A stretch of DNA of 40,156 bases from Kiritimatiellia bacterium (lineage in GTDB: Bacteria; Verrucomicrobiota; Kiritimatiellia; JAAZAB01): the NCBI GenBank assembly GCA_028715905.1, contig JAQUQV010000022.1, positions 1 to 40,156 of the forward strand, given 5' to 3'. The notes under the pieces were generated by a model that had not been told where the DNA came from, searched no databases, and saw nothing but the letters and a program-made list of their open reading frames with translations. Of this stretch, positions 12,939 to 34,896 are shown in pieces (the first letter of the stretch is position 1; each line of letters starts with the position of its first letter). Made by a program: the position numbers and the translations under genes.

Positions 12939-14891
<1,953 letters not shown>

Positions 14892-19806: not shown

Positions 19807-21048
19807 TCAACTACGGTTTCTCCGCACAAAAAAAACTATACTCTCCCTGGAGGGTTTGCGGCCATGATCGCGCATTTGTTGGGCGCTGTTGCCACGATAG
19901 CGGGTTACAACGATTCTATCGCAGTGGAGGCGGGCTTGTTCCCCAATCTCTGCCGTTAGTTCATCTACCATAAATGGGATGCCATTATACTGAGCATTGC
20001 CCACAACGACTGCAACTGGTGCACCGTAGCAACATACGCGACACGCTTCACGGAGTACTAAAAACATATCAAGGAAATACCCTCGTAACATCGGTGGAAT
20101 ACGTGGATCCGGATTCGTTCGCTCCAATTGGGCTAACGCGCAGGAGAGCGTTACTGGCTCTATATAATCTTTAAATATCGGCCTTTCTGGTCTCGCTTCG
20201 GGGTGTGATTCGAAGCTTTGGTAGCGAAGCCAACGGGTCTTTTTCCAGTCAAGAAAACCGAACATCAGTTCGACACCAAAAACTCTTGTGTAGTCGTGCC
20301 GATTTGGATACGGCGGAGACGTAATGACGGCGGAGAAAGAGCCAGTAGGTGCTGGCAGTTGCCGCGCATCGGCACAATGGACAGTCCACTTTTTATTATT
20401 TGCTTTGTCTGTTTGGTGGTTCAAATCCGCCAACATCCTATTGACATGTCCCGCAAGTCGGGCTGGAATATGTCGCTTTGAGACATGACGATCTATCCAT
20501 TCGAGCCAGCCCCCGCTGGGAATGGCACGGCTGAAGTCGGACAGTGTTGCCAACAAAGCCATCTTGAAAAAGTCTCGATCCTTCCGGGCACAGTCAAGAG
20601 AAGCAATCTGATGGGCTAAAGCATCAAACGCGCCGAGCAGGTTGCCAGGCAAAGCCTTCTTCACAAGATCCGGATAGTCACGCAAAACGCCGTTCCATTT
20701 TGACAAGTCAATGCGTTTTTGCATCGCTTTCCATGTTTTTATAAGGCGATCTGGGTCGTAGTTTGCCAATTTAACTTGTGTCGTGAACACCGCAAAAGGA
20801 GACAAGTCAGAGCCTTCAGCTGGAATGCCGCGTTCTTTCGCGGCCAGTGCCGTCGTGCCCGCGCCGCAGAATGGATCGAGAATACGGTCTTTTTCTGTCA
20901 ATCCCCACTCATTAATAAGACCGTGGACGAGCTCGCTGGTGAAACTATGAGGGAAAACGCACCAGCGGTGAATGGGTTTCTCTCTTAACAGTTTGGGCGT
21001 CACCCACCATCGCCATTCAGGTCTTTCCTCTATACGGTATCTTGTCAT
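19807..21048 (-). CDS. DNA methyltransferase, SPPY (N4-cytosine/N6-adenine) type
   Basis: The 413-residue protein has the SAM-binding motif I DPFCGAGTT (58-66), an acidic motif II residue in GSDLSPFA (79-86) and the catalytic motif IV SPPY (244-247). The SPPY form is most often found in N4-cytosine enzymes. Motif I comes first and about 180 residues separate it from SPPY, so a target-recognition-like helical region lies between them. It methylates DNA bases. It is the last gene of the operon with the HerA-like, NurA-like and large methyltransferase genes, starting 4 nt after the HerA stop without a clear ribosome binding site, so translation is probably coupled. It could protect host DNA from, or mark targets for, the other components. 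Confidence 0.82.
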   Translation of the reverse strand: MTRYRIEERPEWRWWVTPKLLREKPIHRWCVFPHSFTSELVHGLINEWGLTEKDRILDPFCGAGTTALAAKERGIPAEGSDLSPFAVFTTQVKLANYDPDRLIKTWKAMQKRIDLSKWNGVLRDYPDLVKKALPGNLLGAFDALAHQIASLDCARKDRDFFKMALLATLSDFSRAIPSGGWLEWIDRHVSKRHIPARLAGHVNRMLADLNHQTDKANNKKWTVHCADARQLPAPTGSFSAVITSPPYPNRHDYTRVFGVELMFGFLDWKKTRWLRYQSFESHPEARPERPIFKDYIEPVTLSCALAQLERTNPDPRIPPMLRGYFLDMFLVLREACRVCCYGAPVAVVVGNAQYNGIPFMVDELTAEIGEQARLHCDRIVVTRYRGNSAQQMRDHGRKPSRESIVFFVRRNRS

Positions 21049-21052
21049 TATC

Positions 21053-22780
21053 TCATGTTGTCCGGTCGTGTCCTATTGCTTGATAGATGGGTTTTGGAAA
21101 CTCAATGCGCACCGGTTGTCGGTAAATCGGATGGGTTAATAGGAGTTCACCCTTGTTCAGCCGTGTGAGATTTGCTTTCACGTCCTGTGAGATAAAACGG
21201 TAGGCCGGATCCGCCAGTTCGGATGAATCGCTTCGGCCAATGACTTTTGTCGAACAGTTGCCCACAACCTGACCGTGGACCTCGCTCATGAACTGTTCGG
21301 CGGAAATCAATACAACGCCAAGGGAACGGCCACGGGCGGCAATATCAAGCACGTAGTCGAGGATCGAGGATTCCCCTTCGCCGCGTCGGCCTGGTGCGTA
21401 CTTATTCAACTCGTCCACGAAAATGATAACCTTTTCCGGGATGTCGCCGCGTTCGTCAACGGTGGCCTCGGCGTACATGGCGTACACCTCTTTGATGATG
21501 TGCCCGAAGACAAGCGCCCGCTCCTCATCCTGCAACTTGGCGATGTCCACCACGAGAGTTTGCCCGCCCTTGATGTTCCGGACTTCCTCGCCCAGGTTTG
21601 CCGCGCGTTTCGGGTTGCGCTGGTCTACGAACAAGCCTGACTGCCGAGTCTTTACAACACGTCTCAGAATGCGGACAAATCGGCCAACTGATGACGCTCT
21701 GACCTGGTCAAGGTTCTGGGGCACACCTTTGTCCATGAGAGGCGGGCCACCAAGCAGTGAATCCCACGATCGCACGGACTGCCACTTCTTCTCGTTGTTC
21801 AGGATGCCTTGCTGAATCTCGCCAATCAGTGCGCCGAGCGTATCCCAGGGGTCCGGCACGCGGATTAAGAGGTCAATGCCCGGCCCCGGATTACTACGGT
21901 CTCCGATTACGTCTTCAAGAGAATAAGCGTAGGTGAAGAATTGATCCGGCGGCTCACCAAAACAGTTCGGCAGGCCGGTTGTGAGTGTCTTCTTTCCCCA
22001 AGGCAGTAGATAACGGACATTTTCAAAAACCTTTGGCTTGAGGCCAAGGAACTCCCAAAACTCGATTTCTTCCGGTTTGATCCCTTTCCGGTCCTTATCA
22101 ATAACAAGCAGGTCGTTCTGTTTCACGTTCAGCAGGATGACCGCCGTTTTCTCCGCCTCGGAAGTCTGTAGGATGGATTGAATCAGGAACGTGGCGTAAG
22201 AAGTCTTTGTTGCAAGTCCAGATATGCCGGCGATGTTCACATGCGCGCCTTCCGGCCCGAGAATATAGCGCTTGTCCAAGTACACACATGCCTTCGTGCC
22301 GTTGGACATGCGAATCATGCCGGCCGGAATCCGGTCTTTCTCATCCATCTTGTCAATGCCAAGTGCAACATGAATGCCTGCTTCGTCTGTGAACTGGACC
22401 GGCGACTCATTCTGCACGGGCATGTATATGCCCATTGGATAACGCAGTTGCGTGGACGGATCGTAGTTCGCCAGCACGTTGACTTCGGCAATATTCGCGC
22501 CTTGGCGTGGCGTCTGTGCTTCATTTGCCGTGCTGCCGAAATCGCTGGAAATGTAGTTGGATAGGTGTGACGGTGCGTCCGTCACTTGTTTGATGTTCGT
22601 CACAAGTCCGAAGGTGCGCGTCCCCTGCATCTGATCAGCCTCAACAATATCGAAGGGATTTGCGATTTCTTCCGGCGCAAGCCAGAACGAAAACTTCTCG
22701 GACGAATTCGGGTCGTTCTGCGTCGCAGACGCCTTCCCGATACATTTCTTGTCGGTCGCATTATCAGTTTTCTTAGCCAT
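21053..22780 (-). CDS. HerA-like (DUF87-type) hexameric ATPase/translocase
   Basis: The 575-residue protein starts at ATG 22780 after GGAGG; an upstream extension to 22828 overlaps the NurA gene. An N-terminal beta-barrel-like region (about 30-170) precedes an ATPase core. The nucleotide loop HVNIAGISGLATKTSYATFL (180-199) has Lys192-Thr193 but lacks the usual Gly before Lys, a form I associate with this HerA subgroup. Walker B is VIIFVDELNK (451-460) with Asp456-Glu457. The later LISAEQFMSEVHGQV and TKVIGRSDSSELADPAYRF are typical of HerA/FtsK-like motors. In archaea HerA drives NurA in DNA end resection. Here the NurA-like gene is directly upstream (20 nt), so the two probably form a translocase-nuclease. 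Confidence 0.82.
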   Translation of the reverse strand: MAKKTDNATDKKCIGKASATQNDPNSSEKFSFWLAPEEIANPFDIVEADQMQGTRTFGLVTNIKQVTDAPSHLSNYISSDFGSTANEAQTPRQGANIAEVNVLANYDPSTQLRYPMGIYMPVQNESPVQFTDEAGIHVALGIDKMDEKDRIPAGMIRMSNGTKACVYLDKRYILGPEGAHVNIAGISGLATKTSYATFLIQSILQTSEAEKTAVILLNVKQNDLLVIDKDRKGIKPEEIEFWEFLGLKPKVFENVRYLLPWGKKTLTTGLPNCFGEPPDQFFTYAYSLEDVIGDRSNPGPGIDLLIRVPDPWDTLGALIGEIQQGILNNEKKWQSVRSWDSLLGGPPLMDKGVPQNLDQVRASSVGRFVRILRRVVKTRQSGLFVDQRNPKRAANLGEEVRNIKGGQTLVVDIAKLQDEERALVFGHIIKEVYAMYAEATVDERGDIPEKVIIFVDELNKYAPGRRGEGESSILDYVLDIAARGRSLGVVLISAEQFMSEVHGQVVGNCSTKVIGRSDSSELADPAYRFISQDVKANLTRLNKGELLLTHPIYRQPVRIEFPKPIYQAIGHDRTT

Positions 22781-22800
22781 TGTCATCCTCCGTTTTCTTG

Positions 22801-23931
22801 TCACATCTTGGACATTATTAGCGGCCATTTCAGTCCTGCTTTCAGTGCTTCGTTGGAGATAAAACCGTTTTTCACCGCCTGTTCGGCAAGGTAGATTGCG
22901 TAAAGGTGGGCGTGCCAGCGCGCGTCCTTGCCGTGGGGTGTTGCCTGCCGTTCCGCCACGAGCACTGACGATATCTTGTCAATGAGTGCCGACGGAATCG
23001 CCTCTCCCTCACGGCTTGGATTAGGCAACTCAATCTTTACAACGCCCATGAGCGGATAATCCAGGTGCTTCTGCTCGCGCAACCGCACGAACCAAATTGC
23101 GGCCTTGCCAGAGCGGGATGCAAAGGCACACGTTCGTGCCGAATACGGCAAGTCGGCCAACAGCTCGTAAAGGTTCATCTTCTTGGTACCGCGTTTACTC
23201 TGAACCTGAAAAGTTGGCTCGCGGCTAAAGGACTTGTTCACCCAAAGCACGTTCGGAATTTCCTTCCACATGTACAGGTCCTTGCCGATATTGCCGTCGG
23301 ACAACAGCCAATGTCCGGCGTCTCGCGGCAACTTCCTGCCCAGTTCTTCTTCCAGTTTCGCCATCATGTGGTGGGCCTTGTGCGGGGCGCGTGAACGTGG
23401 TTCCTTGCTTGACGTTCTCTCGGTCTCGCCGTCATCCTCCTGAAGATCGCAGAATCCGAATCGTTCGCCAGCTTTCTTCACCAAGTCCTCGACGCCTTCT
23501 CCAAATGATACAGCTTTCTTGTCCATCATGAGGATGATTTGATGTCGGGATGCGGCCACATTCACCTGTCCGTTGTCCTTACGGAACACCGTAGCCGCGC
23601 CGATCTGCGAGACGTGAATTGAAGTCCGGCGACTGCCTTCAACCACGTCGCCTAGGAAAAACGTTCGCGCGGAACCGTCGAGGAAGTACCGCAGGATGTG
23701 TTTGTCGGCACGATAGACCGGCACCAATTCAACGTAAGGTTTGGTATTGGGCGTTTCCAGCAGAACTTCAAAGAAGCTATCCTCGCCCATGCGCAGTCGG
23801 TCAATGACCTCGGCATGATCCGGGCGCACCATGTCTTCCATAGCCTGTCCGGTTGCCGGCAGGATCTTGGCTTCCTTGGAGATGAACTCCAATGCGGGCC
23901 GCAGTCCGGTAAATGGATTCCGCGCGCTCAC
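22801..23931 (-). CDS. NurA-like nuclease
   Basis: The 376-residue protein begins at a GTG (23929-23931) overlapping the previous stop as GTGA and preceded by GGAGG; the longer frame to 23985 runs into the upstream gene. NurA features are LDGSART (84-90, conserved Asp85), a second Asp in SDGNIGKD (211-218) and a C-terminal segment WHAHLYAIYLAEQ. The order and spacing fit the RNase-H-like NurA fold, which has nuclease activity on DNA ends. A charged insert (about 163-195) is not typical. The HerA-like gene follows immediately. NurA is well recognised in archaea and is less usual in bacteria, where HerA partners often vary. The fold assignment is moderately sure; activity is inferred. Confidence 0.7.
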   Translation of the reverse strand: MSARNPFTGLRPALEFISKEAKILPATGQAMEDMVRPDHAEVIDRLRMGEDSFFEVLLETPNTKPYVELVPVYRADKHILRYFLDGSARTFFLGDVVEGSRRTSIHVSQIGAATVFRKDNGQVNVAASRHQIILMMDKKAVSFGEGVEDLVKKAGERFGFCDLQEDDGETERTSSKEPRSRAPHKAHHMMAKLEEELGRKLPRDAGHWLLSDGNIGKDLYMWKEIPNVLWVNKSFSREPTFQVQSKRGTKKMNLYELLADLPYSARTCAFASRSGKAAIWFVRLREQKHLDYPLMGVVKIELPNPSREGEAIPSALIDKISSVLVAERQATPHGKDARWHAHLYAIYLAEQAVKNGFISNEALKAGLKWPLIMSKM

Positions 23932-26900
23932 ATCTCCTCCAGAGACCGTTTGATTTCGGTCAAATCTTCGTCGGATAATCCCCACAACTTCGCCGCTGTC
24001 TTGTCGATCTCAGCCTCGATCTCCCGGACATCCGCATCATTTCCCTTTGCGGCGGTTTTGTGGGCGGACTGGGAAAGTTCAACCAATCGCATGTGTACCT
24101 TCGCGATGTCAGAGTATTTCGGGACCGCAATGTGCTTGAGCACGTGAACGCCGGTCTGGATTTCCATTCCATAAGCTGCCACTGCGAACCTTACCGGTAG
24201 TGAGTTAAGGACTGCGCAGAGGTAGTGCGCCTCGTTCTTGGTTAATACATCGACCATCATCAGTTTGTGGTCCGGGATGACCGATTGACCCTCTAACGGA
24301 CCAACGACGGCAGCCGTTAGTGTTTCAGCCTGTTCTCGCCAGACTACCTTGTACTTCGAAAGTGTGTACACCTTGATACTGTACAGAAAGTAAAAACCTT
24401 GTTTCTTTGCAAGACCCTTGATTACCGCACTCTTGCGTTGCGACAGCACATCCTCGAACCTCTTGAAATATGCATGCGCTTTCGGGTAATGCGCTTGCAT
24501 GATCTCCTCGGAGATGGCGTAACGTGGGTCCTTCGGATTCTGAGGGACAAGAATCGCAGCACCACAACTCGCAATCCATCGTTGAACATCCCTGCCCCGA
24601 AGGAGGGGAAACACCAATTCTGCCTCGACTGCAGCTTGGACAGAAGGAGTCTGTCGTCTTGCGCCTTCGGTGATATTGGAGACCATCAAGTTGCCGTCCG
24701 GGCGTTTCCCAACGACAGAGATCCAATAGACAGCGTTTGCCCCGCCCGTGTTGGCGCCCTCGTGAGCCACGTACTTTGACGGACCCAACACTTTCCGCGT
24801 CGCGTTGAGTGCCGCCCTCCTGCCTGTCATCCATGCAGATGTGCTGTCGTTTGGATCAACGGGCATGGCATACCAGTTCTTGGATGTGATCTTGTTCGTT
24901 GTTACTTCCTCATAGGGTGTGTCGAACGCAATTCCCGCGCCACGCCCTGTTCCCTTCTTCTTCCAATACTGATATGGTATCGGGTAATGAACAGCCCTGC
25001 CTTTTGTGAGTATGAGTACAGCGGTCCGGTTTGTAGCACCCTCGAACGGATTTAATGTGACCATGTCCTCGGCAACGGTAGGGGCGATGGGGGTTCCATC
25101 CGGTAGTAGGAACTTACGAAACCCTCTGCCGGCGTCGGACGTTTTTAGGAGGCCTTGTGTGATAATAAAACCGAGTTTGCCGTTTCGTACGAGGTGCTTG
25201 TCCGCGCAAACATAGGTCATCAACGACGAGATATCGATTTTAGAACTCCCATGCCTATCGGACAGACCTTTGTGCTGGAAGAGGTGGTAGTGGTCCTCAT
25301 AGAGAGGAATCAGACTGTAGCGATACTCCTCCGGCAGGCTCTCCCAGTTCACCCAAGGTGGATTGCCGACGACGAAATGACAACGTTCGAGAAAAACCGG
25401 GGCGAATGAATTCTTGATGATGCGCGCCCAAACGCCGTTCAGTCCCTGGTCGTGGAGTTCCTGGAGTTGTTTGAACATGGCGGTGAGTTCGGCCTTCGTT
25501 GCCTTTGCTTCGTCTGCCGTCAGTTCAGCCTTTTTCTCAATGCGCAAAAGAAACACGTCGGCATGGACGCCGGACTCTATTGCGTCGTCCAGCACATCCG
25601 CGAGCGCGTCCATCCGCTCGCGGTAAGCAAATATTACCGGGACACGGAAGACGCCAACAGATGTTTTCAGAGAAAAAACGCCGTCGTCAAAAAGGTCCGT
25701 GCCTTGCGACGGTGTCAAAACGGAGTCGGCCTGATAAACAGGAATGTCAATGTCACCCTTTCGCCCTTTCAACAAGTCGCCCAGAGCAAGCAGATAGTTG
25801 GTTCGGGCGGCAATCACGGCTAGTGGGTTCAAGTCAATGCCAACCACGTTTTTGAGGATCATGTCGAGCAGTTGAGCAGGCAGGATTTTCTTCTTTTCAG
25901 TACGTTCCCGGATGTACTTGATCAGGATGACAAGGAACGTGCCAGATCCGCATGCTGGGTCAAGAACGCGTTTGGTCGGATCGCCAAGATCGCGTCCTAA
26001 TGTTTGAATACATAACCGTTCGGCCAGCCAGTCTGGGGTGTAGTATTCGCCCAGGTCGTGCCGAATCTCGCGTGGCAAGAGATAGTGATACAGTTTCTTC
26101 AACAAATCACGGGCGTTCTCCGGGGCAAGTTCCAGCGTGCCCGGGTCGTACTCGGCAAGGCGTTGGATCAAACTGCTGACCGCCTCTTCGATCTCGGTGT
26201 TCCATGCTGGCAGATACCAGCCGAAGAAATCGCCTTCAAGGAAATTGCGGATGCCATATTCACGGAATAGCCCACCGCGTTCAAGATCGGCCATCGCCTG
26301 CCGCAAATCGTCGTTCTTCTTTGCGGCGAGCGAGGAGAGTGGAGCGGATTCGCCACCCGCGAAACGCGCGGCGGCGAGTGACGCGACCAGTTTGATCAGC
26401 AAGGCGTAGTAGGTGTGCAGTACGAAGAAAACCTTGGCCGCGTCGAGGTGCCTGATCTGCTCTTTTGTCCATAATGAGCCGACGAACCGCTTGAACTCCG
26501 GTTTTGATTCGATGCTCTCTGCCCATTCTTTGTAGTCCGTTGCTTCGCTGAAGAACTGCCGCCACTGCTCAAAAAGTTTTGCAACGAGTGGGTGTTTTGT
26601 GCTGTGCATGGCCGTGTAAAGGGCGCGCACAGCCTTCTGTGCCCGGATATTTTGAGGCCCAAAATCGTTAACGAGGTTTTCCGGTACCATTGCCGCGCCG
26701 GTTGAAAGCGAGAACAGAAGACGCAAGAACCGTTCGGTTGAAGCTGTGTTGACCGGGGTCGGCTCGTCAACAGACCAGCCTTCGCCGACACGCCGGACAA
26801 AAAGGAAGAAATGACCATCCGTCGCAACGCCGGCTAGACGATGGGCCTCCCGCTTTTCGCGTTTTGCCACGTCAAGGATATAGTCCTTAACTTGTTGGAT

Positions 26901-27182
26901 CACCTGGACATTGACAGCCGTTCGATTCGAGTTTTTTAGGATACCGGGCCGCTTGTACTCCAGTACAAGACGGTTATAGACCGAGTCCACTCGGCCACGG
27001 GCGACGGAAAATTCGTCGCGGGGAACGATGGTCAATCCGGCGGAAAGGCCGGCGTCTTCAAGAATGCGCGCCGCCTCCCGGCGGAAATCCGCTTCCGTGC
27101 CGCCGTGCCGGGCGGTTTCAACGAGCGCCTTTGCCACTGACGTCGCTTGTTCGGCTGCAGTTCTTTCCATGTTAACGATCAT
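23928..27182 (-). CDS. large N6-adenine methyltransferase with PD-(D/E)XK nuclease domain (type IIG/PglX-like)
   Basis: The 1084-residue protein has a type-IIG-like layout. The N-terminal domain (about 25-135) has the nuclease pattern Asp66...Glu75-x-Lys77 (RVDSVYNRLVLEYKRPG). A helical region (about 170-370) follows. The methyltransferase core has GEYYTPDWLAERL (378-390), motif I DPACGSGTFL (408-417), GIDLNPLAVIAARTNYLLAL (448-467) and catalytic NPPW (607-610). The C-terminal 400 residues resemble a target-recognition region. It would methylate adenine and may cut DNA. The ATG at 27182 follows AAGG at good spacing. It is the first gene of the four-gene operon, and its stop overlaps the NurA start. 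PglX of BREX is the nearest alternative, but PglX normally lacks such a nuclease domain. Confidence 0.82.
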   Translation of the reverse strand: MIVNMERTAAEQATSVAKALVETARHGGTEADFRREAARILEDAGLSAGLTIVPRDEFSVARGRVDSVYNRLVLEYKRPGILKNSNRTAVNVQVIQQVKDYILDVAKREKREAHRLAGVATDGHFFLFVRRVGEGWSVDEPTPVNTASTERFLRLLFSLSTGAAMVPENLVNDFGPQNIRAQKAVRALYTAMHSTKHPLVAKLFEQWRQFFSEATDYKEWAESIESKPEFKRFVGSLWTKEQIRHLDAAKVFFVLHTYYALLIKLVASLAAARFAGGESAPLSSLAAKKNDDLRQAMADLERGGLFREYGIRNFLEGDFFGWYLPAWNTEIEEAVSSLIQRLAEYDPGTLELAPENARDLLKKLYHYLLPREIRHDLGEYYTPDWLAERLCIQTLGRDLGDPTKRVLDPACGSGTFLVILIKYIRERTEKKKILPAQLLDMILKNVVGIDLNPLAVIAARTNYLLALGDLLKGRKGDIDIPVYQADSVLTPSQGTDLFDDGVFSLKTSVGVFRVPVIFAYRERMDALADVLDDAIESGVHADVFLLRIEKKAELTADEAKATKAELTAMFKQLQELHDQGLNGVWARIIKNSFAPVFLERCHFVVGNPPWVNWESLPEEYRYSLIPLYEDHYHLFQHKGLSDRHGSSKIDISSLMTYVCADKHLVRNGKLGFIITQGLLKTSDAGRGFRKFLLPDGTPIAPTVAEDMVTLNPFEGATNRTAVLILTKGRAVHYPIPYQYWKKKGTGRGAGIAFDTPYEEVTTNKITSKNWYAMPVDPNDSTSAWMTGRRAALNATRKVLGPSKYVAHEGANTGGANAVYWISVVGKRPDGNLMVSNITEGARRQTPSVQAAVEAELVFPLLRGRDVQRWIASCGAAILVPQNPKDPRYAISEEIMQAHYPKAHAYFKRFEDVLSQRKSAVIKGLAKKQGFYFLYSIKVYTLSKYKVVWREQAETLTAAVVGPLEGQSVIPDHKLMMVDVLTKNEAHYLCAVLNSLPVRFAVAAYGMEIQTGVHVLKHIAVPKYSDIAKVHMRLVELSQSAHKTAAKGNDADVREIEAEIDKTAAKLWGLSDEDLTEIKRSLEEM

Positions 27183-27475: not shown

Positions 27476-28984
27476 CTAAATGGTTACCGGGAAAGACTCC
27501 AGCGTTTCAATCCGCAGGATGCCGTTCCGCGTCAGGATCAGCCGGTAGCGGAAGAACGACTGCCGCTGTTCCGGATGGTTGCGGTCCGTCAGGCAGACGA
27601 TCATGTTCACGTGGTAAACGCGGTTGGCCGTTACCGCGGCGATCTTTCCGTTTTGCACGCAGAAAAGCCGGTTGGCGGGATCGTCCATGTTCGCGAACCA
27701 GTAGTCCATTTTAAGCCTTATGATTTCCGTCAGCGATTCCAGCCGTTTGTGGTGATTGCGGATTTTGCCGGCGTCAAACCGGATTTCCTTGTGATAATGG
27801 AGGACGTTTTCCGGAGGGATGACGCCCTTGAAGACGTTCGCCCTGATATCGCGCAGGCGTGTTACCAGTTCCGGGACCTGGTCCGGCCGGCAAAACCGCG
27901 CGCGCGCGCGGTTGTTACCCACTTTTTTATCCAGCGCCGGGTCAATCAGGTTTTCCATCTGGTCCGCCATCAGCGAGGGGATCATGGTAATCAGGGCCGC
28001 CCGCAGGGAGTCCTTGATGCGGTCCTTGGCGATATATCCCAGGACAATCAGGACGACCCACGGCAGACTTTCCGCGACAAACCAGCGCGAGGCGAAGATG
28101 GTCGCCATAACCGCAAACACCATGGCGATGCCCGCCGCCGTGCCCATCATGATCTGGGCGACATGCGCCGCTATGCTGGAAGGCAGGCGGCTCAGGTAAA
28201 GGCAGCCCTCGGACCATTTTTTTAAAAGGCCTTCCCGGTAGACAAATAGTTCGTTGCCGGTTTCATTGCCGGGGTCAATGATGGCCGCGTATCCGCGCTG
28301 TTTCCGGTATTGCTGTTCCCGGTCCAGTCTTTTTTCAAGGGTCTGGCGGCAGGCATCCATGCCCGGGCGCCCGAGCAGGAGGCGATAAGCGCGGTAGTTG
28401 AATTTTTCGGTATGGAGGCTGATGGCTTCATCCGCCCAGAGGAGTCCTTCCCGGAGCATATCTTTGACCTGCGCGTCAAGGAATTCCTGGTGCAGGCGGC
28501 GGAATTTTTCCAGGAAACAATCCATTTCATTCAGGGACGATTCCAGGTAAGCGGCGGCTTGTTCAATGTCTTTTGCCTTGTCAAGTTTCTGGCCGAGGAG
28601 GCGCAGGATACCGGAGAGTTGCGCGTGATACACGTTGGCCAGCACCCTCAGTTCATAAATAACCGCCCTTTCATTCAGTTCCGAAACAAGGCCGGAATTG
28701 GACAGCATTCTGTAAATTCTGGAGAGGGGGCTGACCTCGCAGGCCGGGTCAATAAGTTTGTCCAGAGGAATGGCGGGCACGGTATACCGGGTGTAGGAGC
28801 GCAGATCGCGGAAGAAACCGGCGACTCCGTACCGGCCGGCGGTTATGGCCAGTTGGTAAGGATTGAACAAATAACAGTCAAACTGGAAACAGGCCTTGTC
28901 CCTGTGCCTGACGAGCGGATATTTCAGGTCCACTTCAAGCTGGCGACACCCGTGGGTTTTAATTGTGCAGTGATAATCCGTCAT
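27476..28984 (-). CDS. unknown protein with two central membrane helices
   Basis: I do not recognise this 502-residue protein. ATG 28984 was chosen; a TTG at 29002 would add six residues. The N-terminal 75 residues are polar and beta-like. About 90-230 is helical with many charged heptad-like segments. Two hydrophobic helices (about 276-299 and 307-319) with a short turn suggest a hairpin membrane anchor. About 340-502 is again soluble and ends in beta-like strands (FFRYRLILTRNGILRIETL). It lies 43 nt after uvrB and is probably co-transcribed with it. Both large parts are likely cytoplasmic. Nothing indicates an enzymatic function. Confidence 0.6.
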   Translation of the reverse strand: MTDYHCTIKTHGCRQLEVDLKYPLVRHRDKACFQFDCYLFNPYQLAITAGRYGVAGFFRDLRSYTRYTVPAIPLDKLIDPACEVSPLSRIYRMLSNSGLVSELNERAVIYELRVLANVYHAQLSGILRLLGQKLDKAKDIEQAAAYLESSLNEMDCFLEKFRRLHQEFLDAQVKDMLREGLLWADEAISLHTEKFNYRAYRLLLGRPGMDACRQTLEKRLDREQQYRKQRGYAAIIDPGNETGNELFVYREGLLKKWSEGCLYLSRLPSSIAAHVAQIMMGTAAGIAMVFAVMATIFASRWFVAESLPWVVLIVLGYIAKDRIKDSLRAALITMIPSLMADQMENLIDPALDKKVGNNRARARFCRPDQVPELVTRLRDIRANVFKGVIPPENVLHYHKEIRFDAGKIRNHHKRLESLTEIIRLKMDYWFANMDDPANRLFCVQNGKIAAVTANRVYHVNMIVCLTDRNHPEQRQSFFRYRLILTRNGILRIETLESFPVTI

Positions 28985-29027
28985 TTCTTTTTGAAGAATC
29001 AAAATTTAGATTATTGCGCCGTTATAT

Positions 29028-32151: not shown

Positions 32152-34896
32152 TCACATTTTCCCGTAGAGCGCCCAGTAAGTTATGGGCACATATTGTTCG
32201 CCGCCGAAATCGGTCAGATGCTCGGTTGTATCCGGGCCCATATAATAAATATGCCAGTCGCCGTAATAGGGCGAATAAACGGCCAGGTCGGAAATGCCGT
32301 CGCCGTCGTAGTCGCCGGCCACGGGGCGGTAGTAATATCCGTCGTAATCGGCAAAGCGGTAATCGGGAACAAGGAGCCATTCATTCACGCGCGACCACAC
32401 ATACCAGCCGCCGGAATGATAATCATAGAGGCCGAAATCGGTTATGCCGTCGCCGTCGTAGTCGCCCGGGGCGGGGACGTGGCGGCGGTCGGCGCCGAAC
32501 ACCTCGCTGAAATCGCAATATTCTATCCGGCCGGTCTCCAGGTAAAAAAGCTGCCATAAGGCCATGTCGTTGGAATAAATGACCGCGTCGGATTGGCCGC
32601 CGCCGTTATAATCGCCCGGCGCGGGCACATAGCCGTAGCCGCCGAAAATACCGCCGTTGGCCAGCCAGGTCTGGTTTGAGGAGCTCCAGGCGTGCCAGGC
32701 GCCGGTTCTGGAATTATAAAGCGCCAAATCGGTTGCGCCGTCGCCATCGTAGTCGCCCGGGGCGGGAATGAGATCGTTTCCGCCGGCCTGAAATATGTCC
32801 GTTCGTCCGGTGCCGAGATAATGAATCATCCACCATCCCGTTGCCTGCGAATAGAGCGCCGCGTCCGCCAGGCCGTCGCCGTCATAGTCTCCGGGTATGG
32901 GCAGGTAATCATAACCGCCGAATTGTTCGCCGGCGGCAATCGTGCGGCGGGCGGCGCCCGATGAGTCCGCGCGCCATTGGCCTGTTTGAAAATTGTAAAG
33001 CGCATAATCGGCCCGGCCGTCATGGTCAAAATCGTTATTCAATCCCAGCCGGAGCAGGTCGTAAGATGGGGCGGGGGACGGGCCTTCTTCTTTCACGCCG
33101 ACCGCCGCCCAGGCCGCCGCAACCGCGCCGGTCCAGGCGGAATCCAAGTCCGCCGCCGCCGAAATCCAGTAAATTCGCGCGGCGGCGTAGTCGGTGTCGG
33201 GCGTGCAGTAATTTGCGAGAGCGCGGTAGGCGACCAAGATCGCGTTTGTAATCCCGATGCCGGTGAAATCATAACTGGCGCCGTCGTTATTGCCGCTGCC
33301 GCCCTCGGCGAGCAGGTAAAAGAAATGGTTCTGGACGCCGCAGTTGTAATGGACGCCGCCGTTGTCGCCGCTGCCGTAGTACCAGTAGCTGCCGTGGTAC
33401 CGGCTCGGGTCTTGATAGCGCCGCGGATTGCGCATGTCGCGCAGGGCCGTGGAGTAAGGGTAGGTGCAGTCTTCGCCGATCAACCAGTCGGCATAACCGG
33501 CGGTTCTTTCGGGATAGGAGCTCCGTCCGTCCGGCTGGCTGGCGAATTCAATACCGGCGGCGAAAATATCGGAAAATGATTCATTGAGGGCGCCCGACTC
33601 GTTTTGATAGATCAAGTCCGCGGTATGCTCGGTTACGGCGTGGGTGAATTCATGGGCGCAGACGTCCAGCACCGTCAGATCGGCGAAATAACTGCCGGGA
33701 TAAAAGTAAAAAGCCTGCGCGTCCGGGTCCCAGAATGCGTTGTCGGTATCGCCTTCAACGCGCACGTTGGCCAGGGCCGGGGCGTAGGAATTATCATAAC
33801 TGTGGCGCGCGTGAACCTGGAAATAATAGGCTTGAATAGTGTTGAAATTGCGGGCGGCCGAGATTTCGGTCCGGCCGTATATAGTGTCCGGCCAGTCCGC
33901 CGAGTTATTGCGGGCGGTTGTGTTCTCAGGGTAATCGTATATCCGCCAGAGGTTGCCCGGAGAATAGAGGTAATAATATGCGCTGACTTTGTCGCCGGTG
34001 AGGCTGACCTCCGCGCTCCCTTCGCCGGCGAGGAGCGTTCCGGATATTGTTACGGCGTATTTGGAGCGTTCCGCCGCGGGAACGGTGCTTTTGCGCACGT
34101 CGTTATAGCAGTTTAAAATAGCGCCGTCCCGCGCGTTGACCCAATATCTCCAGTTTCCGAAACCGGCCCTGTTATCCCGGTAAACAAGCCGGAGCTCGTA
34201 GGCCAGGACCGGGGCGGCATTTCTTGCGTAGACGACCAGCTCAATCTCGCCCTTTAATGCGCCGGCGAGTTTGCCTTTTTCAACAAGGTCTTTCTGCGCC
34301 GCCGCAACCGCCGCTTTTTCGTCAATCGTTTTTTCCGGCGCAAGGTCAATGCCGGGGATGTAACGTCCGTTGACCTGGTAAGGCCGCCCGGATTCGTTGA
34401 AGTGAACAACAACCCCTCCGCCGACCACTTTCAATCCCAGATGCATCTGTTCCAGCCGCACATGGCGGAAGCCGAGCGCGTCGCGCTCAATTTTAAGGAG
34501 GGAAAACTCGCGGCCTGCGTCGCGCAGGCGGTAAGATTTTGAGAGATTTTCCATGACGGCCAGGGCGGCGGCGAAATCATTTGTCGGGAGCGGGGAAATG
34601 TTTTTGCCCCCGGCGGGAGCGGAAAGGTCTTTGCCGCGGATGGAGGCCGGCGCGCCGGTTTTCGCGTCCCATGCCACCGCCGCGGCGCCGAGATTTTCCA
34701 GCGCCGCCTTCTGGCCGGCGGAGGGCGTTTTGAGGGGCGCGGTTTGTGAAGCGGCGTAAGGCGCGGCGGCGGATTTTTTCCGTAAATGTTCGTCGTCAGC
34801 CCGGAAGGCTAACGCAGGGGATACGGTTAAAAAGATCAGCAGGGAGAAAACCATTCGCGCCGGAATTGTTGTCATTAAGCCGTTCCGTGAAGACAT
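32152..34896 (-). CDS. secreted M4-family (thermolysin-like) metallopeptidase with FG-GAP/VCBS-like repeats
   Basis: The 914-residue precursor starts with a signal peptide (about 1-30, cleavage near SPALA-FRAD). An FTP/PepSY-type propeptide covers about 60-270. The catalytic domain has the zinc motif HEFTH (415-419), the third ligand Glu439 in GALNESFSD and His515 in GGVHYNCGVQNH, equivalent to thermolysin His231. The C-terminal 270 residues hold six repeats based on DYDGDGxxDxALY (from about 645), Ca-binding beta-propeller-like units found in exported proteins. It is probably autoprocessed and exported to degrade protein, or held at the cell surface. ATG 34896 is used; the ATG at 34875 (MTTIPARM) is nearly as good. 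The next gene, nadA, is functionally unrelated. Confidence 0.93.
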   Translation of the reverse strand: MSSRNGLMTTIPARMVFSLLIFLTVSPALAFRADDEHLRKKSAAAPYAASQTAPLKTPSAGQKAALENLGAAAVAWDAKTGAPASIRGKDLSAPAGGKNISPLPTNDFAAALAVMENLSKSYRLRDAGREFSLLKIERDALGFRHVRLEQMHLGLKVVGGGVVVHFNESGRPYQVNGRYIPGIDLAPEKTIDEKAAVAAAQKDLVEKGKLAGALKGEIELVVYARNAAPVLAYELRLVYRDNRAGFGNWRYWVNARDGAILNCYNDVRKSTVPAAERSKYAVTISGTLLAGEGSAEVSLTGDKVSAYYYLYSPGNLWRIYDYPENTTARNNSADWPDTIYGRTEISAARNFNTIQAYYFQVHARHSYDNSYAPALANVRVEGDTDNAFWDPDAQAFYFYPGSYFADLTVLDVCAHEFTHAVTEHTADLIYQNESGALNESFSDIFAAGIEFASQPDGRSSYPERTAGYADWLIGEDCTYPYSTALRDMRNPRRYQDPSRYHGSYWYYGSGDNGGVHYNCGVQNHFFYLLAEGGSGNNDGASYDFTGIGITNAILVAYRALANYCTPDTDYAAARIYWISAAADLDSAWTGAVAAAWAAVGVKEEGPSPAPSYDLLRLGLNNDFDHDGRADYALYNFQTGQWRADSSGAARRTIAAGEQFGGYDYLPIPGDYDGDGLADAALYSQATGWWMIHYLGTGRTDIFQAGGNDLIPAPGDYDGDGATDLALYNSRTGAWHAWSSSNQTWLANGGIFGGYGYVPAPGDYNGGGQSDAVIYSNDMALWQLFYLETGRIEYCDFSEVFGADRRHVPAPGDYDGDGITDFGLYDYHSGGWYVWSRVNEWLLVPDYRFADYDGYYYRPVAGDYDGDGISDLAVYSPYYGDWHIYYMGPDTTEHLTDFGGEQYVPITYWALYGKM

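Follow-up and report, generated by a model that had tools for sequence, protein, structure and literature searches.

Does an operon that joins a type IIG restriction enzyme to a NurA-HerA pair export DNA or destroy foreign DNA? The question is raised by four genes at positions 19807-27182 of a 40,156-nucleotide stretch from a Kiritimatiellia bacterium, the whole of which is called the window below. In the published work found, this type of operon has been described from Thermus alone, as a DNA secretion machine; its presence in at least nine phyla and in a phage, with defence-type genes adjoining it, makes the question a sharp one. The first-pass annotation had called the system undescribed, which it is not: the same four-gene order has already been published for Thermus, and the operon finds a confident match in a named system, the tdtA operon of Thermus thermophilus HB27 (PMC5365140). 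The reading preferred here, at a probability of roughly 0.6, is that of a horizontally moved tdtA-type cassette for restriction-modification that carries its own end-processing machine.

The operon and its four products

All four open reading frames were found in place on the minus strand, closely spaced and translated in the order IIG, NurA, HerA, methyltransferase. They and their neighbours are as follows.

23928..27182, minus strand: type IIG restriction endonuclease-methyltransferase, 1084 aa, TspDTI/Tth111II subfamily
22801..23931, minus strand: NurA-family nuclease, 376 aa from GTG 23931
21053..22780, minus strand: HerA/TdtA-like ATPase-translocase, 575 aa from ATG 22780
19807..21048, minus strand: DNA amino-methyltransferase, 413 aa
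18504-19775, plus strand: murA, operon neighbour on the low-coordinate side
27476-29002, minus strand: 508-aa gene of unknown function, the other operon neighbour, followed by uvrB

The mechanically called frames of NurA and HerA are longer, open to GTG 23985 (394 aa) and ATG 22828 (591 aa), respectively. The shorter starts are favoured because GGAGGAG precedes the NurA GTG that overlaps the IIG stop codon by 4 nt (GTGA; GGAGGAGATGTGA) and GGAGG lies six bases 5' of the HerA ATG 22780 (GGAGGATGACAATG). With these starts the spacing comprises a 4-nt IIG/NurA overlap, a 20-nt NurA/HerA gap and a 4-nt HerA/methyltransferase gap, confirming the tightly spaced, one-strand arrangement reported at first pass. 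The IIG/NurA overlap is seen again in relatives, and 376 aa is close to the length of most relatives of NurA and to the 377 aa of the Thermus protein. A promoter scan returned 7 matches against 5.1 expected, a number so near chance that no promoter is claimed.

The component identities proposed from the sequence all held. The type IIG protein scores 1167 bits against the PADLOC IIG model PDLC03630 and matches Pfam N6_Mtase and Eco57I. Its nuclease residues (D66, E75-x-K77), SAM motif DPACGSG (408-414) and catalytic NPPW (607-610) are conserved across 38 aligned sequences. The TspDTI enzyme has catalytic D66/E75/E77, DPACGSG and NPPW (PMC3384240), and the window protein shares all of these except position 77, which is K where TspDTI has E. 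The related enzymes TaqII and TaqIII are active in restriction-modification, and their sites are fully methylated in the host (PMC5587805). Identity within the close group declines only from about 0.7 to 0.45-0.55 across the final 130 residues, with no sign of strong hypervariability in the recognition domain. The recognition sequence of TspDTI cannot be predicted (PMC3384240), and the published recognition contacts belong to the TaqII branch.

NurA is the hardest component to place from sequence alone: a Pfam NurA search of the window's genome gave no match, and the window protein alone had no Pfam match at all. Because that search was negative, the assignment was tested by profile and fold. 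The single sequence reaches only E=0.085 against DrNurA, whereas a profile of 49 sequences reaches E=4.9e-7 (PDB 7f6d_H); PF09376 is matched by 14 of the 49 relatives, the window protein not among them. In Foldseek the AlphaFold2 model (pLDDT 87) retrieved below E=0.001 solely DrNurA (7f6d_G, E=4.9e-12) and the Thermotoga nuclease TmNurA (1zup, E=4.3e-8), the latter being the first bacterial NurA structure (PMC9960219). Fold and profile thus both place the protein in the NurA family. D103, K251 and R356 are invariant; judged by their spacing and not by an alignment of the three residues, they may correspond to D53, K201 and R309 of DrNurA.

HerA is the clearer case, matching Deinococcus HerA (7f6d_B) over its full length at E=1.6e-40 as a single sequence and E=1.6e-69 as a profile. 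In the numbering of the 591-aa frame, a variant Walker A-type motif, GISGLATKTS (K208, T209), and Walker B FVDE (D472, E473) place it in the HerA family, and these four residues are invariant in 49 sequences. The variant motif (residues 201-210; window 22199-22228, minus strand) is unusual, common to the branch and without a glycine in the customary place ahead of the lysine; all 49 sequences agree at G201-A206 and K208-Y211.

The fourth product carries motif I as DPFCGAGTT, followed by TSPPY, and is of the N4-cytosine or N6-adenine type. It matches Pfam N6_N4_Mtase and PADLOC MTase_II (PDLC03224, E=1.2e-55), and its TSPPY is invariant in 29 sequences. The activities of all four proteins are predicted ones, taken from relatives.

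Distribution, linkage and probable acquisition

Scanning 84,980 species genomes with a HerA profile left 80 loci, whose arrangements were established by tblastn and clustering of open reading frames. The full order IIG-NurA-HerA-methyltransferase, with all genes on one strand, recurs in 23 other loci spread over at least nine phyla and one phage contig, in agreement with the co-occurrence that the first-pass annotation had proposed to check. This count takes in the viral contig (L011) and two loci (L029, L035) in which one gene was masked by the caller and all four were found by tblastn; extra genes lie between IIG and NurA in 6 of the 23. A second arrangement, IIG-NurA-HerA without that methyltransferase, belongs mostly to thermophiles, including Thermus scotoductus DSM 8553 and T. 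altitudinis, and takes in three loci with the IIG gene last. One contig binned as Clostridiales (L043) holds a cluster nearly identical to that of T. scotoductus (L044) and is probably misbinned Thermus DNA.

A third arrangement lacks IIG; in it, genes for a GHKL ATPase and a radical SAM protein come after NurA-HerA. It was seen in about 24 loci from Bacillota, Bacteroidota and further groups (L079, L081-L085, L087-L097, L099, L102-L106, L009). Those of its GHKL and radical SAM proteins that were run against PADLOC had no match, no paper bringing these elements together was found, and this operon is possibly undescribed.

In the HerA tree the methyltransferase-bearing loci fall into one group of 25 with support of 91/95, just below the star of the tool used; four members of the group (L061, L065, L067, L071) have NurA-HerA-methyltransferase with no IIG detected. 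Across loci, distance matrices correlate at 0.90 for IIG-NurA, 0.90 for IIG-HerA and 0.93 for NurA-HerA, and at 0.65-0.75 for the methyltransferase with the other three proteins; none of 2000 permutations reaches the observed values. Correlation this strong argues that the four proteins act as a single functional unit; joint transfer through linkage alone adds to the correlation. The single operon proposed at first pass is borne out.

Linkage of this kind weighs against the possibility that NurA-HerA serves chiefly to resect double-strand breaks in host DNA, the role of the pair in archaea and Deinococcus, with the restriction genes as chance neighbours or as a means of ensuring that the operon is retained. 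The D. radiodurans resection complex is indeed the closest PDB match of the window HerA and NurA, and other HerA relatives adjoin SbcD-SbcC (Mre11-Rad50) on plasmids. Yet IIG distances would hardly track those of NurA-HerA at 0.90, nor would the two be linked in more than 40 loci, if repair were the main role; the host's relatives also live without the operon, and in HB27 stress tolerance is normal when tdtA is mutated but not when its paralogue TTC0147 is (PMC5365140). Repair as the principal function is improbable. In the plasmid loci themselves (L005-L008; cyanobacteria, Chloroflexota, Streptomyces), a HerA relative precedes exonuclease/SMC genes, which are SbcD-SbcC wherever a name was given.

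Members of the IIG family are not generally linked to NurA-HerA. Among 16 viral contigs with IIG relatives, several of them incomplete, NurA-HerA occurs in L011 only, and a single-sequence HerA scan of the viral contigs gave no match. In 388 genomes of the host's phylum an IIG relative (E<=1e-60) was found in the window and two others only, with no NurA or HerA in the available DNA of those two.

The closest HerA proteins, 74-86% identical to that of the window, come from Omnitrophota, Bacillota, Nitrospirota, Armatimonadota, Thermodesulfobacteriota and Pseudomonadota. Among 57 host relatives no more than two HerA matches were obtained, both remote, and the operon is absent from them. As compared among window genes, the operon is lower in GC (50-55%) and GC3 (0.49-0.64) than the eight nearest flanking genes (56-62% and 0.67-0.73), as had been judged by eye; low GC also marks three genes at the low-coordinate end of the window. 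Horizontal acquisition, which the first-pass annotation had suspected, is probable, and movement of the operon between phyla is counted among the results shown here, along with the identity of the four proteins, their conserved order and their co-evolution. No integrase or tRNA was found on the 40-kb contig, a length at which a larger element is still possible, and the repeat search returned no pair convincingly flanking the operon and no boundary repeat.

The operon had also been said to interrupt murA and uvrB. It does adjoin murA; on the other side lies the 508-aa gene, itself next to uvrB. Four relatives have both of these flanking genes, but each time on separate contigs, so interruption of a conserved gene pair is unsupported and no empty site can be drawn. 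The neighbouring window genes scanned are mostly housekeeping, the others being of unknown function. Further along, window 32152-34896 encodes a thermolysin-like M4 peptidase with C-terminal FG-GAP repeats, beneath which lie five DNA repeats spaced at 135-150 bp.

A compact, sporadic, apparently mobile, low-GC insert is also what a selfish addiction module might look like, with post-segregational killing by the IIG, cuts made lethal by NurA-HerA and no antiviral benefit. Plain type II systems manage without an extra resection machine, and addiction would be weakened when modification and restriction reside in one polypeptide. This explanation is very improbable, the least probable of those considered.

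Foreign-DNA destruction and DNA donation as possible roles

On the preferred restriction-modification reading, the type IIG enzyme would act at an asymmetric site and methylate adenine in one of its strands, and host marking, perhaps on the other strand, would be added by the separate methyltransferase. Unmodified sites would then be nicked or cut by the IIG a fixed short distance away; both the one-strand methylation and the 11/9-nt cleavage are predicted from characterised relatives (PMC5587805). A HerA hexamer, with a NurA dimer as its cap, would load on the end, translocate and degrade it, as may be expected from the Deinococcus complex, which resects DNA ends (PMC9960219), leaving foreign DNA beyond resealing or recombination. 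The hand-off from IIG to NurA-HerA is a putative step, and destruction of foreign DNA is the presumed biological output. Gating of the HerA-NurA nuclease by methylation status is plausible and would be consistent with the comparative evidence. An operon of this kind could explain how type IIG enzymes that cut incompletely restrict effectively in vivo.

The conserved order and strand, the co-varying distances, the HerA identity across phyla, the activity of TaqII/TaqIII and the end resection by DrNurA-HerA were all counted for this reading, and so were the following settings. On the viral contig the operon follows phage RecE-like, RusA-like, DnaC-like and minor-tail genes. Directly upstream of NurA, three loci (L050, L058, L062) carry a NACHT-like AAA and PIN pair and three (L060, L065, L067) an AAA_21/HEC-01A-like gene with DUF4276, both sets sitting between IIG and NurA where IIG is present. 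In the nearest relative of the window operon (L027), a GmrSD-HNH type IV-like restriction gene (12950-14812) starts 2 nt past the methyltransferase stop. The flanks of relatives also match BrxC, BrxF, DpdF, AbiLi and others in PADLOC, as matches uncorrected for background. Counted against defence are the mostly housekeeping neighbours of the window operon, the lack of strong hypervariability in the IIG recognition domain, and the fact that the only genetics on such an operon yielded a DNA-donation phenotype (PMC5365140); no phage challenge is reported in the literature found on it. The first-pass interpretation is partly supported; the tested role of the same gene order in HB27 is donation, not defence (PMC5365140).

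The HB27 operon, described in 2017 on the element ICETh1, comprises the co-transcribed genes TTC1877 (Tth111II), TTC1878 (NurA-like), tdtA and TTC1880 (N4/N6 methylase) (PMC5365140). Loss of tdtA leaves no transjugants and abolishes DNA donation, loss of the nurA-like gene lowers it by 4-5 logs and loss of the IIG gene by about 3 logs (PMC5365140), with only minor effects of the methylase (PMC7767461). The main rival explanation transfers to the window what was proposed for ICETh1: the IIG would nick the donor chromosome at many sites, NurA would process the ends, and the HerA-like TdtA would pump DNA out to a competence-using neighbour. The identical, co-transcribed gene order and the three knockouts that lose donation (PMC5365140, PMC7767461) speak for such a role. 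The ComEC competence channel is present in the host genome too, but does not discriminate since ComEC is very common.

Other observations fit donation less well. The 40-kb contig offers no integrase, tRNA or repeat boundary, and the operon is present in a phage contig as well. Of the eight flanking proteins scanned at the T. scotoductus DSM 8553 cluster, several are housekeeping and none is an integrase; the cluster lies near gltX-like and uvrD-like genes, so that an integrative element is not a constant companion of such clusters. Donation is a minority reading for this host, unlikely but the strongest competitor. Because the operon is spread over many phyla, phage included, destruction of foreign DNA is at least as likely as donation, and defence is modestly favoured as the main role in this host. 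It is possible that one cassette serves both defence and donation through the same cut-and-translocate chemistry. A broader reading, in which the operon represents a widespread, unrecognised restriction class whose IIG hands cut ends to NurA-HerA, with Thermus donation as a local exaptation of a defence cassette, is put forward tentatively, at slightly under even odds.

Comparison with known systems

Among described defence systems, PglZ-BrxC, DrmA/B, DndFGH and HsdR are all absent from the locus (the four proteins and neighbouring window genes scanned), as is any full BREX, DISARM, Dnd or type I set, in line with the first-pass annotation. BREX membership was rejected, the four proteins matching only shared methyltransferase or generic HerA models. 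The methylation-associated defence system (MADS), which has eight genes by its model names, shows a weak likeness in HerA, which matches mad8 (E=2.5e-12), and in the methyltransferases, which match mad2; the four proteins have no other MADS match. Membership was rejected here as well, as there is no multi-gene mad set and the NCBIfam MAD2 cut-off is missed (35/720 bits).

The plasmid loci with exonuclease/SMC genes recall the archaeal HerA-Mre11-Rad50 cluster. The D. radiodurans NurA-HerA complex (PDB 7f6d, PMC9960219) shares its HerA over the full length, Walker residues included, and the fold of its NurA, although the two NurA proteins are no more than 17% identical when aligned by fold; unlike the present operon, it is described as a repair system (PMC9960219). 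The TspDTI/Tth111II/TthHB27I/TsoI subfamily (PMC3384240) is alike in length, D66 and E75 numbering, DPACGSG and NPPW. The window enzyme has a D-EXK site, reported for some putative homologues, in place of the atypical D-EXE of TspDTI (PMC3384240), and it differs further in its linkage to NurA-HerA and a second methyltransferase.

The tdtA operon of HB27 has the same gene order as the window, with a 1106-aa IIG, a 377-aa NurA-like protein and a 410-aa methylase (PMC5365140), and intergenic gaps of 4, 2 and -4 nt against -4, 20 and 4 nt. It resides in an integrative element with an integrase and a tRNA attachment site, neither of which was found around the window operon, this being a feature of ICETh1 that is not shown to be common to all such clusters. 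The T. scotoductus DSM 8553 cluster, called tdtA-like by the authors of PMC5365140, shares the IIG-NurA-HerA order at 47%, 41% and 58% identity, respectively, without a fourth gene of the window's methyltransferase family. Gene order, strand and spacing agree with the tdtA type, as does homology to the T. scotoductus cluster; linked in this way and by protein lengths, the window operon almost certainly belongs to the tdtA-type family.
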